64,000 nucleotides of DNA, taken from Eudoraea adriatica DSM 19308 (GTDB lineage Bacteria > Bacteroidota > Bacteroidia > Flavobacteriales > Flavobacteriaceae). Numbering within the stretch: position 1 is the first letter of the stretch; each line of letters opens with the position of its first letter. The position numbers and the translations under genes are program-made. Location: NCBI RefSeq assembly GCF_000382125.1, contig NZ_KB907548.1, positions 248,001-312,000 of the forward strand, given 5' to 3'. This document shows positions 19,876-41,975 of the stretch, piece after piece. The notes beneath the pieces were generated by a model. It ran no database searches, was not told the origin of the DNA, and saw only the letters and a program-made list of their open reading frames with translations.

Positions 19876-20907
19876 ATGAACATTTGTTTTCTTATGTATC
19901 CTTGGGAGGAGATTGATCCTGAGAATGATACAAGCCTTGCATTAATTCATGAATGCGTTAAACGAAACCATGGTGTAGCTTTGTGCACTCCTGCTAATCT
20001 CACAATTCGCAATAGTGTTACCAATGCCTTTTGTACTGTAATAGGCAGAATGGAAAAAGTGCCCGGTAGTCTGAAATCTTTTTATAAAAAAGCAGAAATC
20101 AGGGAGGAAATGTTACCGTTGGCAGGTTTTGATGTTATTTTCATGAGAGCCAACCCGCCTCTTGACCCTATAATGTTGAATTTTTTGGATTCCGTAAAGG
20201 ATGATGTGTTCATAGTAAATTCACTGCAAGGATTAAGAGAGGCGAATAACAAACTATACACAGCGGCTTTTGGTGACAGCCATGATAATATTATTCCGGT
20301 TACGCATGTTTCTAAGAATAAAAATTATCTGGTTAAGCAGATCAAGGAATCCAAATCCGATAAAATGATCCTCAAGCCTTTAAATGGCTTTGGTGGTTCA
20401 GGGGTAATCCTGATTGAAAAGTCGGCTATGTCCAATATTAAATCGCTATTGGATTTTTATATTTCAAGTTCCGATGAATCCTCCAATTATGTTATTCTTC
20501 AGGAATATATTGAAGGGGCAGACCAGGGTGATGTTAGAATTTTGATTTTGAACGGTGAACCTATTGGTGCAATGCGACGCATTCCTGGCTCTGATGATCA
20601 TCGCTCCAATGTTTCGGCAGGTGGTTCAGTGGCAAAACATACGCTTACCAAACAGGAGAAAGCTTTATGTAAGCAAATAGGACCTAAGCTGGTAAAGGAT
20701 GGACTCTATTTTGTTGGAATAGATGTTATCGGCGGTAAATTGGTGGAAGTAAACGTTATGTCGCCGGGAGGGATAACTTATATGAACAAAGTCTACAAAA
20801 CAAAAATTCAGTCTAAAATAATAGACTTCGTAGAGAGTAAGGTAATGGATAAATTACAAGCTTTTAACAAGCGTTCCAGATTGCGAAATGAGGTTGAGAA
20901 TGCTTAA
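19876..20907 (+). CDS. Glutathione synthetase-like ATP-grasp ligase
   Basis: An ATP-grasp enzyme similar to GshB. KPLNGFGGSGV is the glycine-rich nucleotide loop, ILQEYIEGADQGDVRIL the ATP-binding and Mg region, and EVNVMSPGG the C-terminal metal loop. GshB joins glycine to gamma-glutamylcysteine, but no gamma-glutamylcysteine ligase gene is adjacent, and the next two genes are an amidohydrolase and a metallopeptidase, so the true carboxylate and amine substrates are open. 343 residues. Its 3' end overlaps the next gene (by 20 or 8 bases, depending on start). Confidence 0.85.
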   Translation: MNICFLMYPWEEIDPENDTSLALIHECVKRNHGVALCTPANLTIRNSVTNAFCTVIGRMEKVPGSLKSFYKKAEIREEMLPLAGFDVIFMRANPPLDPIMLNFLDSVKDDVFIVNSLQGLREANNKLYTAAFGDSHDNIIPVTHVSKNKNYLVKQIKESKSDKMILKPLNGFGGSGVILIEKSAMSNIKSLLDFYISSSDESSNYVILQEYIEGADQGDVRILILNGEPIGAMRRIPGSDDHRSNVSAGGSVAKHTLTKQEKALCKQIGPKLVKDGLYFVGIDVIGGKLVEVNVMSPGGITYMNKVYKTKIQSKIIDFVESKVMDKLQAFNKRSRLRNEVENA

Positions 20908-21727
20908 GCTTTCAGTTGCCGATATCATCTCCAATATTAAATCTGAGATTCCGTTTGAGGCAGTTTCAGATGATTATTCCTTTATTTTAAAAATAAGTGA
21001 TTATGCCCCCTATGTCTGTGCTGCAGTGCACAATGGACATCAATTCAGAAGATCTCTGTGGGATAATTGCCTCCATACTGAACACGAACGATGGTATGAA
21101 GAAGATCCCTGTACAAGCGATATGGTGGCGTCTCACCCTATTGTCTTAACCGGGTGTGACAGCAGATTTGAATATGATCTAAATCGGCCACCGGATGGTG
21201 CCATTTATTCAGATGCCTGGGGTAAGCCTTTGTGGAAAACGCCATTATCAGCCGAAGAGTACGATCATAGTATGCTTAAACATGCCTCGTTTTATAGTGT
21301 TGTACACGCTCTCATTGAACAAATTGAAAAGAAATACGGCAAGGCTATTGTTTTTGATATGCATAGTTATAACTGGAAGCGCTGGGACCGTGAAGTCCCT
21401 ACCTGGAATCTTGGAACCAGTAACATAGACAATAATCGTTATGGGGCCATAGTAAAGGGCTGGCAACAAAAGCTGGGAACAATTGAATTGCCGAATAATA
21501 TAAAATCCGATTGTAAAATTAACGACACCTTTCAGGGCAATGGATTTTTTCTGAAATATATTACAACAACTTTTGGCAATACGCTTGTTTTAGCAACTGA
21601 AATTGCAAAGATCTATTGTGACGAGCTCACTGCTATTATTTATCCCGAAGTAGTGCGTGCTGTGGAATTGCAACTAAAAGAAATAGTACCTTTGCAGGCT
21701 AAGGAATTTCACGAGAAAGATTTATGA
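20888..21727 (+). CDS. N-formylglutamate amidohydrolase-family protein
   Basis: HutG/FGase-like zinc amidohydrolase. Visible signatures are AAVHNGHQFR near residue 52 and VFDMHSYN, which carry the metal-binding Glu/His/Asp residues in relatives. In histidine breakdown the enzyme hydrolyses N-formylglutamate; no other hut gene is nearby, so here it may act on another acylated amino acid or peptide. ATG at 20888 and ATG at 20900 are both possible; I keep the first. It overlaps the ATP-grasp gene upstream and the QEGLA gene downstream (ATGA, 4 bases). Confidence 0.85.
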   Translation: MRLRMLKLSVADIISNIKSEIPFEAVSDDYSFILKISDYAPYVCAAVHNGHQFRRSLWDNCLHTEHERWYEEDPCTSDMVASHPIVLTGCDSRFEYDLNRPPDGAIYSDAWGKPLWKTPLSAEEYDHSMLKHASFYSVVHALIEQIEKKYGKAIVFDMHSYNWKRWDREVPTWNLGTSNIDNNRYGAIVKGWQQKLGTIELPNNIKSDCKINDTFQGNGFFLKYITTTFGNTLVLATEIAKIYCDELTAIIYPEVVRAVELQLKEIVPLQAKEFHEKDL

Positions 21728-22896
21728 TTACGGAAAATCAACGCCTGGCTATTCAATTTGAATATCCCAATGTAATAGAAGTAGATGACAACCTTGATCG
21801 TCTTATAAGGAACATTGAGTTGCTTAGCTATGTAAACCCCCTAAATGGTGAAAAGGAAAAACATAAGTTTTTTGCTTCCAAATTTGTAGAAGACCCCAAA
21901 TTTAAATACCCAAAATTAAAGTTCGATCCTTATAAGCTTCATCGCTTGTTCTATTCACAGCGGTTGGAGCGAATTCAGGATGCAGAACTAAAGAATTTAT
22001 ATACCGATATCATTTATTATTATGCCAATATGGTGCAATGTATCAAGACCATTGGCAAGGGAAAAGAGTTTTATTACAATTCCCTGAATATATATGGAAC
22101 CCCTACGGAAAAGGATGTTCAAAATGCAAAATTTATTCTTCATTTTGATGATGAACCTGGGGATGTTGAATTGGAAAAAGTCTTTTCAACGGAGGATGCA
22201 AAGGCATATTTTGAAGACTTTGCGGCAGCCTATGAATTTCCATTAAATATTAAATTTGCGACCCATATAGCAGCTGACGCAATGGTAAGCAATGCAACAA
22301 AAACATTGCTTTTAAAACGCAATAGCAGGTTTAGCCAAAACCAACTGCTAACTTTGGCAAATCATGAAATTGGGGTACATCTGGTAACTACTTTTAATGC
22401 TTCACTTCAGCCCTTAAAAATATTTTCAAATGGGTTCCCGAAAAATGTAGAAACTCAGGAAGGTTTGGCAGTTTTTAGTGAATACATGAGCGGTGCACTC
22501 ACAATTAAAAGACTTAAAGAATTAGCATATAGAGTTTTAGCTTCGGACAGTTTAATTAAAGGTTATAGTTTTGCAGATACTTTTGATTTAATACATAACC
22601 AGTACAAATTAAACAGGAATGATGCTTTTTCGATAACTTTAAGAGCACATAGAGGTGGTGGTTTTACAAAAGACCGACTGTATTTAAGCGGATTAAAAAA
22701 AATATACAAACGCTATAAAAATGGCGAGTCAATGGATGTATTACTCACCGGAAAAGTTGCACTTAATAATGCTGATCAAATAAAGTATCTGCAAAACTTA
22801 GGTTTAGCACAGCCAATTAGCCACAATAATCTGGCGTATTCGGAAAAGAGAAGTTCAAATGCCACGCTCGATTTTATTTTGAATAATTTAAAATAG
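21724..22896 (+). CDS. QEGLA-motif (DUF1704, MATCAP-like) putative metallopeptidase
   Basis: 390 residues. NHEIGVH (His214-Glu215-His219) is an HExxxH zinc site and ETQEGLAVFSEYM (QEGLA at 245-249) the family signature. Relatives are called flavohemoglobin expression-modulating QEGLA proteins in bacteria, while the related eukaryotic MATCAP proteins are tyrosine carboxypeptidases. I infer a carboxypeptidase-like activity. It overlaps the amidohydrolase gene by 4 bases, which argues for joint work with it and with the ATP-grasp ligase. It converges with the DCC gene with a single base between stops. Confidence 0.85.
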   Translation: MITENQRLAIQFEYPNVIEVDDNLDRLIRNIELLSYVNPLNGEKEKHKFFASKFVEDPKFKYPKLKFDPYKLHRLFYSQRLERIQDAELKNLYTDIIYYYANMVQCIKTIGKGKEFYYNSLNIYGTPTEKDVQNAKFILHFDDEPGDVELEKVFSTEDAKAYFEDFAAAYEFPLNIKFATHIAADAMVSNATKTLLLKRNSRFSQNQLLTLANHEIGVHLVTTFNASLQPLKIFSNGFPKNVETQEGLAVFSEYMSGALTIKRLKELAYRVLASDSLIKGYSFADTFDLIHNQYKLNRNDAFSITLRAHRGGGFTKDRLYLSGLKKIYKRYKNGESMDVLLTGKVALNNADQIKYLQNLGLAQPISHNNLAYSEKRSSNATLDFILNNLK

Positions 22897-31943: not shown

Positions 31944-33920
31944 ATGCAATATTTAAGCAAGGGGATTAGCAAGGAAAAGCTGCTTGAGCTCTACCGGGCT
32001 ATGTTAAAGCCAAGGATGATTGAAGAAAAAATGCTCATACTCTTGCGTCAGGGAAAGATATCTAAATGGTTTAGTGGTATTGGACAGGAAGCAATTTCCG
32101 TAGGAGTTGCCAGTGCCTTGAACAAGGATGAATATATTCTTCCAATGCACAGAAACCTGGGAGTTTTTACAACACGGGGCATACCTTTATTTCGATTATT
32201 TACCCAATGGCAGGGTAAGTCCAGTGGGTTTACAAATGGCCGTGATCGAAGTTTTCATTTCGGAACTCAGGAATATAAGATTGTCGGCATGATTTCCCAT
32301 CTGGGACCTCAACTTGGGGTAGCAGATGGTATTGCCCTGGCGGACCTTCTTAAAAAAAGACAAAAAGTAACAGCTGTTTTTACAGGGGAAGGAGCCACTA
32401 GTGAAGGTGATTTCCATGAAGCGCTCAATGTGGCCGCAGTGTGGGATTTACCCGTACTATTTTGTATTGAAAACAATGGGTATGGACTTTCTACACCAAT
32501 TTCCGAGCAGTTTAAATGCGAGCATATAGCAGATAAAGGTAAAGGCTATGGAATGGAAGCCCATATAATAAATGGAAATAATATCCTTGAAGTCTACAGC
32601 AAAGTCAATGAGTTATGTGAAAGCATCCGAAAAGAGCCAAGGCCGGTATTATTGGAATTCAAAACATTCCGAATGCGCGGGCATGAAGAAGCTAGCGGCA
32701 CTAAATATGTGCCTAAGAAAATGCTGGAGGAGTGGGCTGCTATGGATCCAATAGAAAATTATGTAGAATATTTGCACGCACAGGGGGTTCTTTCTGAGGA
32801 AAAGGAAGTTGAATTTAAAAAAGAGATTATTCATGAAATAGATGAAAACCTACAGCTGGCATACGCGGAAAGAGAAGTAGAATTTGATGAAAGTAAAGAA
32901 TTAAATGATGTCTATAAAGAATTTATATATCAAGATATTAAGCCAAATAATGAATCACAAAATATTCGCCTTGTAGATGCAATTTCTGAAGGCCTCAAGC
33001 AATCTATGGAAAAGCATGATAATTTGGTAATTCTGGGTCAGGATATTGCCGATTATGGAGGCGTCTTCAAAATAACAGAGGGGTTTGTAGAAGCTTTTGG
33101 GGCGGATCGGGTAAGAAATACACCTATATGTGAATCGGCAATTGTATCCGCAGCCATGGGGCTTTCTATTAACGGAATAAAATCTGTAATGGAAATGCAA
33201 TTTGGTGATTTTGTCAGTTCAGGTTTTAACCCTATTGTCAATTACCTGGCAAAAGTTCACTATCGGTGGAATGAAAATGCAGATGTGGTAATTAGAATGC
33301 CATGTGGTGCAGGCGTGGGAGCCGGACCGTTTCATTCCCAGACCAATGAGGCGTGGTTCACAAAAACTCCCGGATTAAAGGTAGTATATCCTGCTTTCCC
33401 TTATGATGCAAAAGGGCTTTTGGCAACGGCAATTAATGATCCGAACCCAGTAATGTTTTTTGAACATAAAGCGCTTTATCGCAGTGTTTACCAGGAGGTT
33501 CCCACTTCCTATTATACATTGCCATTTGGAAAAGCCACCCTGTTGAAAGAAGGTGAAGAAGTTTCAATAGTCACATACGGTGCTGGTGTTCACTGGGCTC
33601 TTGAATGTTTGGAGCAACATCCCGAAATACGAGCAGATCTTTTAGATTTGCGCACACTTCAACCTTTAGACACTCAAGCAATTTATGAATCTGTAAAAAA
33701 GACAGGGAAATTAATTATTCTACAGGAAGATAGTATGTTTGGAGGGATTGCCAGTGATATAGCTGCCCTTGTGATGGAGGATTGTTTTGAATTCTTAGAT
33801 GCTCCGGTGAAACGGGTTGCGAGTATGGAAACTCCGGTCCCATTTGCCAAATCATTGGAAAATAATTATTTACCCAAAGAAAGATTTCGGACCTCCTTAA
33901 TTGAGTTGATGGAATATTAA
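31944..33920 (+). CDS. Fused E1 alpha/beta of a 2-oxoacid (branched-chain type) dehydrogenase
   Basis: 658 residues. The first half is E1 alpha, with thiamine-diphosphate motif GEGATSEGDFHEAL...ENNGYG. The second half is E1 beta (QDIADYGGVFKITEGF; VIRMPCGAGVGAGPFHSQ; LLDLRTLQPLD). It decarboxylates a 2-oxoacid and passes the acyl group to lipoyl E2; E2 and E3 genes are not in this window. The fused form is common in Bacteroidota. It is monocistronic as far as can be seen. Confidence 0.93.
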   Translation: MQYLSKGISKEKLLELYRAMLKPRMIEEKMLILLRQGKISKWFSGIGQEAISVGVASALNKDEYILPMHRNLGVFTTRGIPLFRLFTQWQGKSSGFTNGRDRSFHFGTQEYKIVGMISHLGPQLGVADGIALADLLKKRQKVTAVFTGEGATSEGDFHEALNVAAVWDLPVLFCIENNGYGLSTPISEQFKCEHIADKGKGYGMEAHIINGNNILEVYSKVNELCESIRKEPRPVLLEFKTFRMRGHEEASGTKYVPKKMLEEWAAMDPIENYVEYLHAQGVLSEEKEVEFKKEIIHEIDENLQLAYAEREVEFDESKELNDVYKEFIYQDIKPNNESQNIRLVDAISEGLKQSMEKHDNLVILGQDIADYGGVFKITEGFVEAFGADRVRNTPICESAIVSAAMGLSINGIKSVMEMQFGDFVSSGFNPIVNYLAKVHYRWNENADVVIRMPCGAGVGAGPFHSQTNEAWFTKTPGLKVVYPAFPYDAKGLLATAINDPNPVMFFEHKALYRSVYQEVPTSYYTLPFGKATLLKEGEEVSIVTYGAGVHWALECLEQHPEIRADLLDLRTLQPLDTQAIYESVKKTGKLIILQEDSMFGGIASDIAALVMEDCFEFLDAPVKRVASMETPVPFAKSLENNYLPKERFRTSLIELMEY

Positions 33921-35214: not shown

Positions 35215-35245
35215 CTTTTGTTAATCAGTTAATAATTAAGTATAG

Positions 35246-35270
35246 CCCGACTTATAAGTCGGGTTTTTTT
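35246..35270 (+). terminator. Intrinsic terminator after the OmpA-family gene
   Basis: CCCGACTT-AT-AAGTCGGG (35246-35263) followed by seven T. It separates the lipocalin/OmpA unit from the polyketide operon. Confidence 0.92.
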
Positions 35271-35295
35271 ATACAAAAACAGTTATCTTCAAAAA

Positions 35296-36417
35296 GTGGA
35301 ACAATTTGATGTAATCATAATAGGGGGAGGATTAGCCGGGCTAACTTCCGCTATTCATCTGGCCGGCGAAGGGTATAAATTGCTTCTTATAGAACGATAT
35401 CCTTATCCGCATCACAAAGTATGTGGTGAATATGTGTCTAATGAAGTAGTCCCTTATCTTAAAAGTCTTGGGGTAACACTACCCAAAGTGGCTGCTATAG
35501 ATACGCTTCAATTATCTACAAAACACGGAAAATTACTTCAAACAAAATTGCCCCTGGGTGGTTTTGGAATCAGCAGATATACTTTTGATAATGCTCTCTA
35601 TAAAAGAGCACTTTCTCTGGGAGTCTCTGTTAAATTTGAAACCGTTAAAAATGTTACATATTTAAATGATTCATTCACCATAGACACAGAAAATGAAAAC
35701 AGCTATTCGGCCAAAGTAGCAATCGGGGCTTACGGTAAACGATCGGGTCTGGATAAACAGCTGAATCGAAATTTCATATACAAAAATGCGCCATGGATAG
35801 GAGTAAAAGCCCATTATGCTTTCCCGGAATTTCCTGAGAACTTAGTGGCGCTGCATAATTTTGAAGGTGGCTACGGGGGCTTATCCAAAACTGAGTCCGG
35901 AGCAGTAAATTTTTGCTATCTGACCTCTTATAAAAGTTTTCAAACTGTAAAAAGCATTGAGAAGTTTAATTCCAATATTGTGGCCAGGAACAAATTTTTA
36001 AATCACTTTCTAAGGCACGCAAAACCTCTTTTCGACCAACCTATGAGTATTGCACAAGTGTCCTTCGAATCCAAACAGACAATAAAGGACCATATTCTTA
36101 TGTGCGGCGATACGGCAGGTTTGATCCATCCACTCTGCGGTAACGGTATGGCCATGGCCATACATAGCGCTAAACTTGCATCAGAGAGAATTGACAATTT
36201 CTTTAAAGAGTCTGGTTATAACCGAAGTAAAATGGAGTCTGATTACAGCAAAAAATGGAAAAGCACATTCAAACGACGGTTGCAAACCGGCAGGGCCTTA
36301 CAGGCTATTTTATTAAGTGCACGGGCTTCTGATATCCTTATGGGAACGATCACTAAATCCCCTGGGTTAATCAGATCGCTAATTAAAAGAACACATGGTA
36401 AACCAATAGCCTTATGA
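35296..36417 (+). CDS. FAD-dependent oxidoreductase of the polyketide operon
   Basis: 373 residues. The Rossmann FAD motif IIIGGGLAGLTSA opens the protein, KVCGEYVS follows the first strand-helix unit, and CGDTAGLIHPLCGNGMAMAIHSA is the second FAD motif. This is the geranylgeranyl reductase/UbiH-like class of flavoproteins, so hydroxylation or reduction of a lipid-like aromatic is plausible. The start is GTG at 35296, about 26 bases after the terminator, with TATCTTCA near 35284 as an imperfect -7. First gene of the eight-gene operon; it overlaps the methyltransferase by ATGA. Confidence 0.85.
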   Translation: MEQFDVIIIGGGLAGLTSAIHLAGEGYKLLLIERYPYPHHKVCGEYVSNEVVPYLKSLGVTLPKVAAIDTLQLSTKHGKLLQTKLPLGGFGISRYTFDNALYKRALSLGVSVKFETVKNVTYLNDSFTIDTENENSYSAKVAIGAYGKRSGLDKQLNRNFIYKNAPWIGVKAHYAFPEFPENLVALHNFEGGYGGLSKTESGAVNFCYLTSYKSFQTVKSIEKFNSNIVARNKFLNHFLRHAKPLFDQPMSIAQVSFESKQTIKDHILMCGDTAGLIHPLCGNGMAMAIHSAKLASERIDNFFKESGYNRSKMESDYSKKWKSTFKRRLQTGRALQAILLSARASDILMGTITKSPGLIRSLIKRTHGKPIAL

Positions 36418-37142
36418 TGGATTTTCAATATAGAAATACAGAGCCCGAATTAATGGACAAACCAAATGTCCCCATTGATATACTCCGGTTGGTTTTTAGG
36501 GATATTAATAAAAGTAATCGCTATTTAGGAGGCAATGCAATTACACTGGCTAATGTTTGTAAGCTGATTAAATTATTTCCCGGGAAGCAATATACAATAG
36601 CAGACATGGGCTGTGGCGATGGGGAAATGCTTAGGCAAATTGCCGGTCATTTTAGGAATAAGGAGACAGAAGTTGTCTTAATTGGCCTGGATCTCAATGA
36701 AAATGCATTAGCTATAGCTCGAGAATTATCAGTTGATTTTCCCGAGATTACATTCTTAAAACAGGACATTTTGGCTTTGAAGCCACAGGATTTTAACTGT
36801 GATATACTGCTCTGTACACTTACAATGCATCATTTTAGCAATGCGCAAATACCATTATTCCTGTCTAAATTCACAAAATTGGCCAAAATTGGCATAGTTA
36901 TCAATGACTTGCAAAGAAGTGCGCTCTCATATTATCTTTTTAAAGGGTTTAGTGCTATTTTTATAAAAACAAAAATTGCAAAACATGATGGTCTCATCTC
37001 AATTAAAAGTGGATTTAAGAAAAAAGACTTAATAACTTTTTCAAAAGATTTAACTCATACAACTCATACTATTAATTGGAAATGGGCTTTTAGATATGTA
37101 TGGGTAATTCAGACATCTCGACTAAGCCAATCATATGAATAA
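36414..37142 (+). CDS. Class I SAM-dependent methyltransferase
   Basis: 242 residues. Motif I IADMGCGDGEMLRQIA, an acidic end of strand 2 in LIGLDLNENAL, and CDILLCTLTMHHF are the usual SAM-binding elements. It likely methylates an oxygen or carbon of the operon's product. It shows no signal peptide. It overlaps both neighbours (4 bases with the FAD gene, 8 with the polyketide synthase). Confidence 0.88.
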   Translation: MMDFQYRNTEPELMDKPNVPIDILRLVFRDINKSNRYLGGNAITLANVCKLIKLFPGKQYTIADMGCGDGEMLRQIAGHFRNKETEVVLIGLDLNENALAIARELSVDFPEITFLKQDILALKPQDFNCDILLCTLTMHHFSNAQIPLFLSKFTKLAKIGIVINDLQRSALSYYLFKGFSAIFIKTKIAKHDGLISIKSGFKKKDLITFSKDLTHTTHTINWKWAFRYVWVIQTSRLSQSYE

Positions 37143-38190
37143 TGTACGAATAGCAACTGTGGCTAAAACATTGCCGCCTTACTGCAGGGAAACTAGGCAT
37201 ATTCTTCCTTTTGTTGAGTTATGGCTTAGCGGACAGGAAGATAGGTTCAGAAGAAAAGTAGTGAAGATATTTGAGGGAGCAGCAGTAGACAAGCGCTACG
37301 GAATTATGGGGATTGAAGATGTCTTTACCGCTACCAGTCTTGAGGCTAAAAACGATATTTATGTAAGGGAAGTAAAAAAATTAGGGACATCTGTACTTAG
37401 GAAAGCATTAAATGAGAGCAACTGGAAGGCAGATTCCCTGGATTATATAATTACGGTAAGCTGCACAGGTATAATGATTCCATCGTTAGATGCGTATATT
37501 GTAAATGATCTTGAGCTAAGACAGGATATTGTACGCCTGCCAGTAACTGAAATGGGTTGTGCAGCTGGTGTTTCAGGACTTATTTACGCCGCCAACTTTT
37601 TAAGGGCAAATCCAGGTAAACGTGCGGCCGTGATAGCTGTGGAAAGCCCAACGGCAACATTCCAGCTTACAGATTTTTCTATGGCAAACATGGTCAGCGC
37701 AGCTATATTCGGGGATGGTGCAGCTTGTGTTTTGTTGACTTCTGAAGAAGATGCCGATGGACCTAAAATTGTGGCAGAAGAAATGTATCATTTTAGGAAT
37801 GCCACACATATGATGGGGTTCGACCTGACAAACACAGGTCTTAAAATGATTCTTGACCCCTCTGTTCCCGAAACCATTGCAGAGCATTTTCCGAAAATAA
37901 TACATCCTTTTTTAGAAAAAAACGGCACTTCTATTGAGCAGGTAGATCATTTAGTCTTTCATCCCGGTGGAAAGAAGATTGTCCAGACCGTTGAAGAATT
38001 ATTCGGAAAGTTAGGGAAAAACATAGATGATACGCGTGAAACGTTGCGTTTGTATGGGAATATGAGCAGTGCAACGGTGCTTTATGTGCTGGAACGCTTT
38101 ATGTCTAAAGAAATTGGTAAAGGGGAGCAAGGGTTGCTACTGAGTTTCGGACCTGGATTTTCGGCTCAACGTGTTTTGCTGGAGTGGTAA
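37135..38190 (+). CDS. Type III polyketide synthase (chalcone synthase-like)
   Basis: 351 residues of the chalcone/stilbene synthase superfamily. The catalytic triad is intact: Cys142 in EMGCAAGVSGL, His276 in VFHPGG and Asn309 in YGNMSSATV. Such enzymes extend a CoA- or ACP-bound starter with malonyl-CoA and close a ring (alkylresorcinol, pyrone or phloroglucinol). Placement beside acyl carrier protein, ketosynthase, dehydratase and reductase genes suggests a specially made fatty acyl starter. Confidence 0.93.
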   Translation: MNNVRIATVAKTLPPYCRETRHILPFVELWLSGQEDRFRRKVVKIFEGAAVDKRYGIMGIEDVFTATSLEAKNDIYVREVKKLGTSVLRKALNESNWKADSLDYIITVSCTGIMIPSLDAYIVNDLELRQDIVRLPVTEMGCAAGVSGLIYAANFLRANPGKRAAVIAVESPTATFQLTDFSMANMVSAAIFGDGAACVLLTSEEDADGPKIVAEEMYHFRNATHMMGFDLTNTGLKMILDPSVPETIAEHFPKIIHPFLEKNGTSIEQVDHLVFHPGGKKIVQTVEELFGKLGKNIDDTRETLRLYGNMSSATVLYVLERFMSKEIGKGEQGLLLSFGPGFSAQRVLLEW

Positions 38191-38209
38191 GAACGAAAAA
38201 TTTAATTAA

Positions 38210-39001
38210 GTGGACAAACTAAAAACAAAAAATTGGGCACTAATATTGGGAGGCAGCAAGGGTCTTGGTCTTGCATCGGCAATAAAGCTGGCACAGAACG
38301 GCTACCATATACTTGTTGTTCATCGGGACCGTAATATGGATATGAAAGGTATAGCCAATGACTTTATGAAAATAACTGCAACGGGAGTGTTGTTTAAGAG
38401 TTATAATCAGGATGCTATATTAAAGGACAGCAGAGATAAATTAACACAAAAAATTAAGGATTTTCTTCCTGAAGGTCATAAGATAAAGGTTTTGGTGCAC
38501 AGTATTGCCAAGGGTAACCTTAAACCAATGCATTCCTCAAAGGAAAAAGAACTAAGTAACCAGGATTTTCAGATTACGATTAATGCAATGGCCTTAAGTC
38601 TCTATGATTGGACCCAGGCATTAATTAAGGCGGCTTTATTCGCCGAGGATACAAGGATCATTTCATTTACCAGTGAAGGTTCTACAAAAGCAATAGCTAA
38701 CTATGGTGCTGTTGGGGCCGCAAAAGCCGCACTAGAAGCTATTTCCAGAAATATGGCTATGGAGTTTGCAACTTTAGGCATAAAAACCAATTGCATACAG
38801 GCCGGGGTCACAGATACAGAATCGCTAAGACGTATTCCGGGCAGTGAAATTTTAATAGAACAGGCAAAGTTAAAAAATCCAGGTGCACGGCTTACCACTC
38901 CAGAGGATATAGCTGATGTAGTCTATTTGTTATGCACAGAAGAGGCAAAATGGATAAATGGAACTGTGATTAAGGTAGATGGAGGTGAAAGTTTAACTTA
39001 A
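38210..39001 (+). CDS. SDR reductase, FabI-like enoyl-ACP reductase
   Basis: 263 residues. The nucleotide motif GGSKGLG (14-20) is at the N-terminus. The catalytic pair is Tyr165-x6-Lys172, the spacing of FabI-type enoyl-ACP reductases rather than the Tyr-x3-Lys of ketoreductases. The C-terminus has INGTVIKVDGGES. I therefore expect double-bond reduction on the ACP-bound chain. GTG start at 38210, directly after an in-frame TAA and 19 bases after the polyketide synthase. Confidence 0.82.
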   Translation: MDKLKTKNWALILGGSKGLGLASAIKLAQNGYHILVVHRDRNMDMKGIANDFMKITATGVLFKSYNQDAILKDSRDKLTQKIKDFLPEGHKIKVLVHSIAKGNLKPMHSSKEKELSNQDFQITINAMALSLYDWTQALIKAALFAEDTRIISFTSEGSTKAIANYGAVGAAKAALEAISRNMAMEFATLGIKTNCIQAGVTDTESLRRIPGSEILIEQAKLKNPGARLTTPEDIADVVYLLCTEEAKWINGTVIKVDGGESLT

Positions 39002-39004
39002 ATC

Positions 39005-39460
39005 ATGGAAATTAATAAAATCTTAGAAAAGTTACCATATTCCAAACAATTTTTGTTTGTAGATAGCTTGTCAAATATAGATGAAAATGGCGTTACGGGT
39101 AGTTTTCATTTTTGTGAAGATCTTGAATTTTACAAAGGCCATTTTAAACAATTTCCGGTAACCCCGGGGGTTATTCTTACAGAATGTTGTGCTCAAATCG
39201 GATTGGTATGCCTGGGTATTTTTTTGCTCTCGGAAGAACCAGACAGCAATCTGGATAATCTAACTGTGGCATTCAGTGGTTCTGAAATGGAATTTTACCT
39301 TCCGGTATACCCCGGAGAGACTGTATTTGTACACTCAGAAAAGGATTATTTCAGATTCAATAAATTAAAGTGTAAAGTAAAAATGTATAATACTTCTAAG
39401 GAATTGGTATGCAAAGGTGAATTAGCCGGAATGATAAAAAATTCTGCGAATGGAAGATAG
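39005..39460 (+). CDS. FabZ/FabA-like 3-hydroxyacyl-ACP dehydratase
   Basis: A hotdog-fold protein of 151 residues. KGHFKQFPVTPGVILTE holds the expected active-site His46 and Glu60 with the dehydratase GHFPxxPVxPG pattern slightly changed (KQFPVTPG). It should remove water from the 3-hydroxyacyl chain. 3 bases after the reductase; its end overlaps the ketosynthase start by 11 bases. Confidence 0.88.
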   Translation: MEINKILEKLPYSKQFLFVDSLSNIDENGVTGSFHFCEDLEFYKGHFKQFPVTPGVILTECCAQIGLVCLGIFLLSEEPDSNLDNLTVAFSGSEMEFYLPVYPGETVFVHSEKDYFRFNKLKCKVKMYNTSKELVCKGELAGMIKNSANGR

Positions 39461-40724
39461 AGTAGTAGTGACAGGTTTAGGTATTTGTGCCCCAAATGGC
39501 GTAACGCTTAACGACTTTACCAATAGCCTGAAGAAAGGTATTAGTGGAATAAGTTTTCAACAAAAATTAAAAGATTTGAATTTTGGCTGTCAAGTAGCTG
39601 GTATACCAGATATTAATGAAGGTTATATAAATAGATACTTTACGCCTTTGCAGCTTAGAGGTTTAAATGCAAGCGGACTTGTTTATGGAGTTATTGCAGG
39701 GACAGATGCATGGACAGATGCCGGTTTGACCAAGGCACAGGAAGATGAGCCTGATTGGGATAGTGGAATCATTTTTGGAACGGGTATTTTAGGGGTTGAT
39801 AAATTCCGCGAATCAATTCATCTGGTAGATGCAGGGAATACCAGGAGGCTGGGAAGCACCTCAGTTATCCAAACAATGGCAAGCGGCATAAGTGCTTATT
39901 TGGGGGGGATACTTGGTTCTGGTAACCAGGTTACTACTAATTCCTCTGCCTGCACTACGGGTACCGAAGGCGTAATAATGGCCTATGACCGGATACGTTC
40001 AGGCAAAGCGAAACGCATTTTGACCGGAAGTTGTAGTGACAGCGGACCCTATGTATGGGGTGGCTTTGATGCAATGCGCATTCTCCCTAGAAAGTATAAT
40101 GATACACCTTCTAATGCCAGCAGGCCATTGAGCGCTTCTGCTTCCGGATTTGTTCCAGGGAGTGGGGCAGGGGCTTTGGTATTGGAATCATTGACGAGTG
40201 CCAAAAAAAGAGGCGCAAAAATATACGCTGAAGTTTTGGGTGGCGCCATAAATAGTGGTGGTCAAAGAGGGGGTGGTAGTATGACCGCCCCGAATAGCCT
40301 GTCTGTACAGCGGTGCATAAAATTGGCATTAAAAAATTCCGGAATAGAAAGTAAGGATATTGACGCTATAAATGGTCATTTAACAGCTACCGGAAAAGAC
40401 CCTGTTGAAGTGCTCAACTGGAGCCTCGCATTGGGGCGATCCGGACTAAATTTTCCTTTTATTAATTCTTTTAAAGGAATTATGGGCCATGGCCTTGCTG
40501 CTGCAGGCAGTATGGAATGTGTTGGGGCATTGCTGCAATTTAGAGAAGAGCAAATTTTTGGAAATGTAAATATCGAAGATTTGCATCCCGAAATAGAAAA
40601 ACTGGTTGATAAATCCCGTATACCCTTAAAGACCATAAACTTTATACCTAAAACAATCGCAAAAGCAAGTTTTGGTTTTGGGGATGTAAATGCTTGTGTT
40701 ATTTTTAGCAACTTTAAGGATTAA
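39450..40724 (+). CDS. Beta-ketoacyl-ACP synthase (FabF/FabB-like)
   Basis: 424 residues, thiolase fold. Active-site Cys168 (NSSACTTG), first His310 in NGHLTATGKDP and Lys342/His347 in NSFKGIMGHGLAAAG are present, so it should be catalytic. The first His motif departs from the usual HGTGT (here GHLTATG) and the second region has KGIMGH in place of KSxxGH. This divergence suggests a specialised enzyme, not the housekeeping FabF. Confidence 0.9.
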   Translation: MEDRVVVTGLGICAPNGVTLNDFTNSLKKGISGISFQQKLKDLNFGCQVAGIPDINEGYINRYFTPLQLRGLNASGLVYGVIAGTDAWTDAGLTKAQEDEPDWDSGIIFGTGILGVDKFRESIHLVDAGNTRRLGSTSVIQTMASGISAYLGGILGSGNQVTTNSSACTTGTEGVIMAYDRIRSGKAKRILTGSCSDSGPYVWGGFDAMRILPRKYNDTPSNASRPLSASASGFVPGSGAGALVLESLTSAKKRGAKIYAEVLGGAINSGGQRGGGSMTAPNSLSVQRCIKLALKNSGIESKDIDAINGHLTATGKDPVEVLNWSLALGRSGLNFPFINSFKGIMGHGLAAAGSMECVGALLQFREEQIFGNVNIEDLHPEIEKLVDKSRIPLKTINFIPKTIAKASFGFGDVNACVIFSNFKD

Positions 40725-40733
40725 AAAAATACT

Positions 40734-40994
40734 ATGAAAGAAGAAAAATATTATCAACAATTGAAAGGGATAGTAAAGCCCTATTTGCCCGAGGATATAT
40801 CCGTTGATGACATATCACCAGACAGTCATTTTATAAATGAACTCAACATTAATTCTGCTAACCTGGTAGATATTGTTCTTGATGTGGAAGATGCTTTTGA
40901 AATTACACTTGAAAATGATGACATGGATGAAATGCAAACAGTGAATGATGCAATGGCTATTATCAATAAAAAACGTAGTTCCAAGGAGCAATGA
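40734..40994 (+). CDS. Acyl carrier protein of the polyketide operon
   Basis: 86 residues, acidic, four-helix type. The phosphopantetheine site is Ser41 in LNINSANLVDIV, where the common DSL motif is replaced by NSA. It is likely a dedicated carrier for the ketosynthase, dehydratase and reductase beside it. 9 bases after the ketosynthase and overlapping the next gene by ATGA. Confidence 0.9.
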   Translation: MKEEKYYQQLKGIVKPYLPEDISVDDISPDSHFINELNINSANLVDIVLDVEDAFEITLENDDMDEMQTVNDAMAIINKKRSSKEQ

Positions 40995-41422
40995 AATCGT
41001 TTTATTCCTGGGCCGTTGAAAAGTTAAAGGTAGATTACAGGCTAATATTCACCTATTGCATTATTTATTTTGCGTGGGGTATGTTCATGAACTGGTTGGG
41101 CAATGAGTTGGAGATTGCTAGGTTTACCTTTTGGTGGCAGGTAATCAGCTGCTATATTTTATATATGGTTCCAATTTCTTTATTGCTGCGAAAACTCCCT
41201 TTCCATATGCAATATGCCTATGGACTGGTGGCAATGGGGCTATTGGAATTCGGAGGCTATTTCTTTAAAACATCCTATGCGTTTCCTGACAATATCCTGG
41301 ATGAACTAATTGGGATTCGAAACTTCACTCTCGGGATGGCACTTTTCTTTGCTTTGTATTTTCCTCTTGGGAATTGGGCTGTAGGTAAAATCTATGCGTA
41401 TATTTTTAAAATTAGAGAATAG
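40991..41422 (+). CDS. Small integral membrane protein ending the polyketide operon
   Basis: 143 residues with four hydrophobic segments (about 18-38, 45-65, 73-92 and 108-130) and no recognised domain. It has many aromatic residues. Translational coupling to the ACP gene puts it in the operon, so a role in placing or exporting a lipid product at the membrane is possible, but this is inference. Confidence 0.75.
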   Translation: MKSFYSWAVEKLKVDYRLIFTYCIIYFAWGMFMNWLGNELEIARFTFWWQVISCYILYMVPISLLLRKLPFHMQYAYGLVAMGLLEFGGYFFKTSYAFPDNILDELIGIRNFTLGMALFFALYFPLGNWAVGKIYAYIFKIRE

Positions 41423-41468: not shown

Positions 41469-41975
41469 TTAACCTAATTCAAGAATCAGGTTTATTTCTA
41501 CTTTGTTGTCTTCCCTGCCTTTTTTAATATGGATATTAAAATCGGAACAAAATAGTATAGCAGCCCCTCTTAGTATATTTCCATCCTGATCAAAATACCA
41601 TGTAAGATTTTTAGAGATTCCTTTGATCGTGATCTTTCCAACAACTTTAAATCCATTCTCAACTAAACTGACTTCTGAACTTTTAAATGTGATTAGAGGG
41701 TACTCTTCTTCGTCAAAATATTTACTGCTTTTCAAATGCCAGTCACGCAAAAAATTCCCTGTTTTTAATGTGCCTACAGCAACAGAACCTTCAAATTTTG
41801 AATTAGTAAGTTCTTTAAGGGAAATTTCAGATGAAGACTCAAAGCCTTCAATTGAACCATCAACATCTTTAGAAACGAAGACAAATTCAATTCGCGCAGA
41901 AGTAATATCCTGTTGGGCATTCAAAACCTGGATTGCTAAAAAAAAGACGATCAGGACTTTGGAATAGAACTTCAT
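41469..41975 (-). CDS. YceI-family secreted lipid-binding-like protein
   Basis: 168 residues with a type I signal peptide (cleavage near LNAQ). Strands with VGTLKTGNFLRDWHLKSSKYFDEEEYPLITFKSSEV match the YceI beta-barrel, which binds isoprenoid-like molecules in characterised cases. It converges with the polyketide operon; a shared role is possible but not shown. Confidence 0.85.
   Translation of the reverse strand: MKFYSKVLIVFFLAIQVLNAQQDITSARIEFVFVSKDVDGSIEGFESSSEISLKELTNSKFEGSVAVGTLKTGNFLRDWHLKSSKYFDEEEYPLITFKSSEVSLVENGFKVVGKITIKGISKNLTWYFDQDGNILRGAAILFCSDFNIHIKKGREDNKVEINLILELG

Follow-up and report, generated by a model that had tools for sequence, protein, structure and literature searches.

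The genome of the flavobacterium Eudoraea adriatica DSM 19308 (Flavobacteriaceae, 3.9 Mb) contains an operon of eight genes at positions 35296-41422 of the 64,000-nucleotide stretch analysed here (contig NZ_KB907548.1, positions 248,001 to 312,000; hereafter the window), and this operon is real, conserved and widespread. We read it, with a probability of roughly 0.63, as an assembly line that makes a lipid with a ring as its head group. In this reading a type III polyketide synthase (T3PKS), a methyltransferase (MT) and a flavin adenine dinucleotide (FAD)-dependent oxidoreductase, which resemble the phenolic-lipid or polyketide-quinone module of the srs, pkq and hid operons, would work together with a dedicated type II cassette for the acyl chain. 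The joining of such a type II acyl cassette to the known T3PKS-MT-FAD module is, judged by gene content, what is new here. The reading starts from the anatomy of the operon, its intact catalytic residues, a conserved gene order, a near-perfect co-occurrence of its ketosynthase (KS) with its T3PKS, and matches elsewhere in the genome to FabG and to a phosphopantetheinyl transferase (PPTase).

Anatomy of the operon and gene assignments

Gene calls in the window place eight open reading frames (ORFs) on one strand, tightly packed, with junctions in gene order of -4, -8, +19, +3, -11, +9 and -4 bases, exactly as proposed in an earlier examination of the letters (hereafter the sequence-only reading), which had given gaps of -11 to +19. 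The genes are as follows.

35296-36417, + strand: FAD-dependent oxidoreductase of the hydroxylase/halogenase/geranylgeranyl-reductase superfamily (373 amino acids, GTG start)
36414-37142, + strand: S-adenosylmethionine (SAM)-dependent MT (242 amino acids)
37135-38190, + strand: T3PKS with the triad C142/H276/N309 (351 amino acids)
38210-39001, + strand: FabL-like enoyl-acyl carrier protein (ACP) reductase, a short-chain dehydrogenase/reductase (SDR) with Y165-x6-K172 (263 amino acids); accessory
39005-39460, + strand: FabZ-type 3-hydroxyacyl-ACP dehydratase (DH) with H46/E60 (151 amino acids)
39450-40724, + strand: FabF/FabB-type KS with C168/H310/K342/H347 (424 amino acids)
40734-40994, + strand: ACP with S41 within an I-N-S-A motif (86 amino acids)
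40991-41422, + strand: small integral membrane protein with four helices and no family (143 amino acids); lineage-specific accessory

Pfam and NCBIfam gave family matches for the first seven proteins, the T3PKS being of the chalcone/stilbene-synthase type, the DH having the FabA/FabZ fold and the ACP being a phosphopantetheine-binding protein. These matches agree with the identities given in the sequence-only reading, apart from its FabI-like label: the SDR is better called FabL-like, judging by its match to NCBIfam FabL (165 bits against a curated cut-off of 328) and its nearest solved chain, the enoyl-ACP reductase 3oic. The KS scored 240 bits with FabF and 226 bits with FabB, neither reaching the cut-off, and its nearest solved chains are the beta-ketoacyl synthases 3u0f and 3lrf; those of the DH are FabZ-type dehydratases. 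The T3PKS is closest among solved chains to PKS11 (170 bits), and its top NCBIfam model, DpgA, scored 170 bits, under the cut-off of 425, so it is not assigned to the DpgA family. For the MT, the top NCBIfam model is PRK06202 (111 bits, cut-off 243) and no solved chain matched at E ≤ 0.001. The FAD protein has a flavin halogenase and a digeranylgeranylglycerophospholipid reductase as its nearest solved chains, and Foldseek matched its AlphaFold2 model (mean predicted confidence, pLDDT, 88.8) to hydroxylases, reductases and halogenases alike. We considered naming it specifically a hydroxylase or a reductase and made no choice, since the predicted structure matched both kinds as well as halogenases. 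The membrane protein has no Pfam or NCBIfam match; the idea that it is an exporter was set aside when its AlphaFold2 model (pLDDT 82.6) found no PDB match at E ≤ 0.001.

Together, the ACP, KS, DH and enoyl reductase make up a type II fatty-acid synthase (FAS) set, all with their catalytic residues. By ORF calls and Pfam, only discrete proteins and no type I FAS lie next to the T3PKS. Neither a ligase nor a thioesterase was found among the eight proteins with Pfam and NCBIfam. The same searches found no ketoreductase there, the single SDR being of the Y-x6-K, FabL-like kind. This bears out the expectation that a ketoreductase is missing and is compatible with FabG coming from elsewhere, as one FabG above the NCBIfam cut-off lies outside the operon in the host genome.

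The catalytic residues named in the sequence-only reading are all present, and they are conserved in relatives. Among the distinct loci in which the residue in question falls within the best local alignment, C142, H276 and N309 of the T3PKS are kept in 120/120, H46 and E60 of the DH in 119/119, C168 of the KS in 117/117 and its H310, K342 and H347 in 115/115, and S41 of the ACP in 115/115. In the SDR, K172 is conserved in 99/99 and Y165 in 98/99, this single tyrosine being the sole exception among the catalytic residues.

Distribution and coupling of the polyketide synthase with the acyl cassette

In an even sample of 249 Flavobacteriaceae genomes, which includes that of the window, 86 have a T3PKS match at E ≤ 1e-40, comprising 85 orthologues that are 59-100% identical and one protein (G072) at 31%. 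Across a sample of the phylum, 166 of 395 genomes match at E ≤ 1e-30, with 33 orthologues of at least 66% identity (30 in the family and 3 outside); the next match listed after these is 33% identical. The closest relatives among the matches listed, from which the records nearest the host genome may be excluded, are uncultured Eudoraea with T3PKSs 94% and 90% identical. In a quick tree, with branch support from SH-aLRT (a likelihood ratio test) only, the T3PKS clade is fully supported and sits on a long stem; its three members from other families are nested within the flavobacterial tree, which points to a probable transfer of the set out of the Flavobacteriaceae to other families. Plasmids yielded no close relatives, none exceeding 60% identity for the FAD enzyme, the T3PKS or the KS. 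One locus (L056, genome G191) has its T3PKS on a long branch (0.92) and its KS reported with an internal TGA; the whole set may be degenerating together in this genome.

Gene order was compared over 120 distinct loci. These combine 46 loci hand-picked for spread (40 from the 85 family genomes of the T3PKS clade and 6 from the phylum sample) with the best 80 of 529 T3PKS relatives, hence biased to high identity, less 6 duplicates. The order over these loci is FAD-MT-T3PKS-(enoyl reductase)-DH-KS-ACP, and its preservation excludes chance for the eight-gene grouping. A T3PKS with the Cys-His-Asn triad, by which the loci were selected, a SAM-dependent MT and a FAD oxidoreductase are each found in all 120; the DH and the KS are each present in 118, the ACP in 114 and the SDR in 99. 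Among the extras are the membrane protein (46 loci), a PPTase (33), a YceI gene in the operon (3) and an MMPL transporter (2).

The coupling of a dedicated partial type II fatty-acid cassette to the T3PKS, which the sequence-only reading had put forward, is supported across the family sample. An orthologue of the operon's KS (E ≤ 1e-70) occurs in 84 of the 85 genomes of the T3PKS clade and in none of the other 164 (Fisher p about 1e-66, a figure that ignores shared ancestry). Homologous operons without the fatty-acid genes had been set beforehand as the finding that would count against the coupling. Instead, the DH and KS are in place in 118 of the 120 loci, and in the remaining two they are moved or interrupted. 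Six loci lack the ACP; in four the contig ends at the KS, and the other two keep the cassette. Relocated genes are retained as well: DH-KS-ACP lies on a separate contig in one genome (L051/G144) and 355 kb away in another (G190), and at L151 the DH, KS, ACP and PPTase genes follow downstream with insertions between them, complete and without the SDR. Protein distances over 93 loci correlate at r = 0.58-0.83 between pairs of set genes (T3PKS-KS 0.83, T3PKS-ACP 0.58); when a set gene is paired with the OmpA-family gene next door, r is 0.46-0.59. The two ranges touch, and the ACP is short. In another comparison, of 112 loci plus the window, distances within the set gave r = 0.53-0.82.

The cassette was also sought beside more distant enzymes. 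Among 14 distant Bacteroidota T3PKS loci examined (L064-L077, about 30% identity), none has a match to the operon's DH, KS or ACP at E ≤ 1e-4, a search that did not look for unrelated fatty-acid genes, and we dropped these T3PKSs as cassette carriers. Homologues of the operon's MT and FAD proteins do stand next to distant T3PKSs, in L077 and L171.

Core genes, accessory genes and functions probably borrowed

The core of the set is FAD-MT-T3PKS-DH-KS-ACP. The sequence-only reading had counted the enoyl reductase and the membrane protein as members; with 99 and 46 of the 120 loci, respectively, neither is core, and both are accessories. The FabL-like reductase is absent beside the T3PKS in 21 loci, and in all ten genomes tested among those without it in the operon, no SDR orthologue was found anywhere at E ≤ 1e-25, while both known SDR holders scored. 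On the tree, the presence of the SDR requires eight changes and that of the membrane protein seven. The chain, then, need not be saturated by the operon.

In the 33 loci with a PPTase gene, it follows the ACP gene, and the four proteins tested all contain PF01648. The host genome has one PPTase match outside the operon (C2:389946). Together with the invariant S41, these observations indirectly support the view that the ACP is phosphopantetheinylated. In two loci (L047 and L054) an MMPL-family transporter gene, possibly for a lipid exporter, comes after the PPTase gene (PF03176 in L047, by similarity in L054). L047 also has, before the dehydratase gene, a 186-amino-acid ORF that by eye resembles a REP-type transposase.

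Proposed pathway

We infer the acyl transfer, the ring type, its decorations and the place and role of the product from the gene content. The KS, the FabZ-type DH and, here, the FabL-type enoyl reductase would make or lengthen an acyl chain carried by the operon's own ACP, with FabG and the PPTase borrowed from the cell and malonyl loading assumed to be borrowed as well. The T3PKS would take over this chain, most simply directly from the ACP, as no gene for a ligase or thioesterase belongs to the operon. Such a transfer would have its precedent in Azotobacter vinelandii, where a review describes the T3PKSs ArsB and ArsC as taking chains directly from the ACP of ArsA (PMC6274091). The T3PKS would then add malonyl units and close the ring, more probably to an alkylresorcinol than to a pyrone, and the MT and FAD oxidoreductase would methylate and oxidise the ring, yielding an envelope lipid of the methoxy-hydroquinone or quinone type.

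Two residues of the T3PKS bear on the ring. F229 is invariant (120/120) and M238 is kept in 119/120, and their 9-residue spacing equals that of G284 and Met293 in ArsC. In Azotobacter, Trp at the ArsB position matching ArsC G284 is described as favouring resorcinol (PMC6274091). Our alignment shows Trp in PKS11 at the position equivalent to F229, and because PKS11 is named an alpha-pyrone synthase, F229 and M238 would favour a resorcinol ring just weakly. An ArsB-like protein sought through Azospirillum plasmids for the W281/G284 mapping was rejected, as the match looked by eye like a beta-ketoacyl-ACP synthase III type and stood near a flagellin-like ORF.

If a methylated quinone lipid is made, 85 of the 249 sampled genomes of the family, a third of the sample, would code for a lipid not yet described, which might serve as an additional respiratory quinone of the sort reported from actinobacteria (PMC9927152). 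The operon would, besides, offer a type II equivalent of the dedicated FAS that hands its chain to a T3PKS in Azotobacter. Its gene content makes the dependence on the ACP directly testable.

Comparison with known systems

Operons of a T3PKS, an MT and an oxidoreductase are described as giving methylated, oxidised long-chain resorcinols and quinones (PMC9927152, PMC8086630, PMC10896814). The polyketide quinones of pkqABC in M. smegmatis are reported as alternative electron carriers, within an account of alternative respiratory quinones in actinobacteria (PMC9927152), and hidABC of cyanobacteria leads to hierridin B (PMC8086630, PMC10896814). In pkqABC, srs of S. griseus, hidABC and a planctomycete operon, the same three enzyme types adjoin as they do here; unlike all of these, the present operon adds a KS, a DH and an ACP, in most loci together with an enoyl reductase and in some with a PPTase. 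The ars operon of Azotobacter, in which the type I FAS ArsA/D feeds ArsB/ArsC, similarly has a dedicated FAS adjoining its T3PKSs. Here, in contrast, the proteins are discrete and of type II, there is one T3PKS where ars has two, an MT and a FAD enzyme are added, and the operon has no ketoreductase.

Discrete KS, FabZ-type DH and ACP proteins are also shared with the aryl polyene and flexirubin clusters of Bacteroidota. Aryl polyene clusters contain in addition a second KS/chain-length factor, a ketoreductase and an aryl ligase. None of these is among the eight proteins, where the T3PKS would make the ring instead. Only one other KS was found in the host genome at E ≤ 1e-10 (34% identical), so no KS set like that of aryl polyenes is seen there. 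A likewise pairing of ACP and KS with a T3PKS occurs on plasmid pLA3 of Novosphingobium pentaromativorans (L171, 976-5050), with the row ACP-KS-T3PKS-FAD monooxygenase and a divergent MT. Identity to the operon's proteins is 30% for the T3PKS, 29% for the FAD enzyme, 32% for the MT and only 25% for the KS; the plasmid's ACP has no significant similarity to the operon's, and neither a dehydratase nor an enoyl reductase is annotated in the row. Given the low KS identity, the association of T3PKSs with carrier proteins and ketosynthases may have arisen more than once. A further homologue of the FAD enzyme, 33% identical, is encoded on a plasmid of Hymenobacter sp. DG01 (L170, 119-5128); with genes for an isonitrile synthase and a TauD-like dioxygenase beside it, it belongs to another pathway context.

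T3PKS clusters of Flavobacteriaceae have been counted or mentioned in antiSMASH analyses (PMC10734526, PMC7440613, PMC9323603, PMC7477175). In a survey of 2,680 Flavobacteriaceae and Weeksellaceae genomes they make up 10.74% of gene clusters, with no product named for them in the portions of the text available to us (PMC10734526). A genome paper of 2018 mentions a 'T3pks-arylpolyene' cluster in Aequorivita, with a polyketide synthase 69% identical to a Zobellia T3PKS (data not shown there; PMC6139392). Within the accessible portions of the open-access literature we found no account of the gene order, of the coupling of T3PKS and cassette or of the product; an account in subscription journals may exist.

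Alternative explanations

Several points weigh against the assembly line as proposed. The likeness to hidABC and pkqABC is one of enzyme type, not of direct sequence comparison with HidA/HidB or PkqB/PkqC. The matches of the FAD enzyme take in halogenases and geranylgeranyl reductases besides hydroxylases, the enoyl reductase is missing from 21 of the 120 loci, and the matching of F229 to W281 comes from the PKS11 alignment and the residue spacing rather than from ArsB and ArsC sequences, a bulky residue there not being decisive. Finally, one genome of the T3PKS clade (G138) is alone in having no KS orthologue, with just a 36% identical KS elsewhere in its genome; its T3PKS contig stops just beyond a partial dehydratase match, 9 kb from the SDR, so that loss and an assembly gap are indistinguishable. 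A more specific product is conceivable, though we give it a low probability: the cassette might build an unsaturated or polyenoic chain, tail first, with the T3PKS adding the ring last. This would give a polyene lipid with a resorcinol or quinone head, assembled in the opposite order to aryl polyenes: a full polyene in lineages without the enoyl reductase and a reduced one in those keeping it.

Other uses of the same enzymes fare less well. The T3PKS could make alkylpyrones rather than resorcinols, the MT O-methylating the pyrone, as BpsB of Bacillus does with an alkylpyrone, and the FAD enzyme oxidising the product elsewhere. The name of PKS11, the nearest solved relative, fits this. Two points make it rather unlikely: the position that probably governs cyclisation holds the bulky, invariant F229, and a FAD oxidoreductase next to an MT and a T3PKS is what quinone and resorcinol operons show. 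We also consider it improbable that synthesis runs the other way, with the T3PKS making an aromatic starter from malonyl-CoA in the manner of DpgA, which would be loaded on the ACP and extended by the KS and DH to an aryl-alkyl or aryl-polyene chain. DpgA as the top NCBIfam model, the 'T3pks-arylpolyene' cluster of Aequorivita (PMC6139392) and the loci without a dedicated enoyl reductase speak for this order. Against it, the eight proteins include no ligase or acyltransferase to move an aromatic acyl group onto the ACP, the nearest solved relative is PKS11, and the FAD-MT-T3PKS trio matches alkylresorcinol and quinone operons. Moreover, DpgA works with the partners DpgB/D, including a hydratase, and no hydratase of that kind is among the eight proteins. 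That a trio of the hid kind merely lies beside a fatty-acid cassette with no shared pathway, in a conserved chromosomal context, is highly improbable and already disfavoured. The context is indeed strongly conserved: of the 113 loci having at least 4 kb of upstream sequence, 87 have there, on the same strand, a gene for a branched-chain keto acid dehydrogenase (BCKDH)-type E1 protein (E1_dh and transketolase domains; 31944-33920 in the window). However, 13 loci without E1 and OmpA still carry the full core (L047, L048, L050, L052, L054, L055, L058-L063 and L082), the KS orthologue is confined to genomes with the T3PKS, the relocated cassettes are retained, and distances agree better within the set than with the OmpA neighbour. 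Taken as a whole, the earlier interpretation is partly supported, and its core idea, a T3PKS coupled to its own partial type II FAS, stands.

Surroundings of the operon

Three further features flank the eight genes.

35244-35265, + strand: terminator-like hairpin with a T run, downstream of the OmpA-family gene and ahead of the operon
35284-35289, + strand: promoter-like TATCTT element whose first base is 12 upstream of the GTG codon that opens the FAD gene
41469-41975, - strand: YceI-family protein (PF04264), convergent neighbour, a possible lipid carrier and an uncertain member of the set

Taken alone the hairpin is weak, with 5 such sites in the scanned region against 5.4 expected from shuffles; a T run of at least five bases occurs in 97 of 121 upstream regions. 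A TANCTT element, a pattern chosen post hoc after viewing the sequences, occurs in the 25 bases ahead of the start in 90 of 121 operons, compared with a mean of 9.1 and a maximum of 17 in 200 shuffles; in 81 of the 121 it is at -12 or -13. It may correspond to the Bacteroidota -7 element. Its position 12-13 bases before the FAD start suggests that transcription may begin near the start codon, perhaps giving a leaderless transcript. A strict TAnnTTTG promoter motif was discarded, being upstream of just 4 of the 121 operons.

In 43 of 120 loci there is a YceI gene no more than 2.5 kb from the operon, and in three of these it is directly upstream on the same strand. A gene for a lipid/isoprenoid-binding protein is likewise reported with the planctomycete T3PKS operon (PMC10896814). 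The BCKDH-type E1 protein was considered as a supplier of starter units and rejected as chromosomal context, being missing, with enough upstream sequence, from the 13 loci that also lack OmpA. ARAGORN found no tRNA or tmRNA genes in the window (1-64000). Further upstream, at 19876-22893 and after a dicarboxylate symporter gene, the window holds in a row genes for a glutathione-synthetase-like ATP-grasp protein, an N-formylglutamate amidohydrolase-like protein and a MATCAP-family peptidase.

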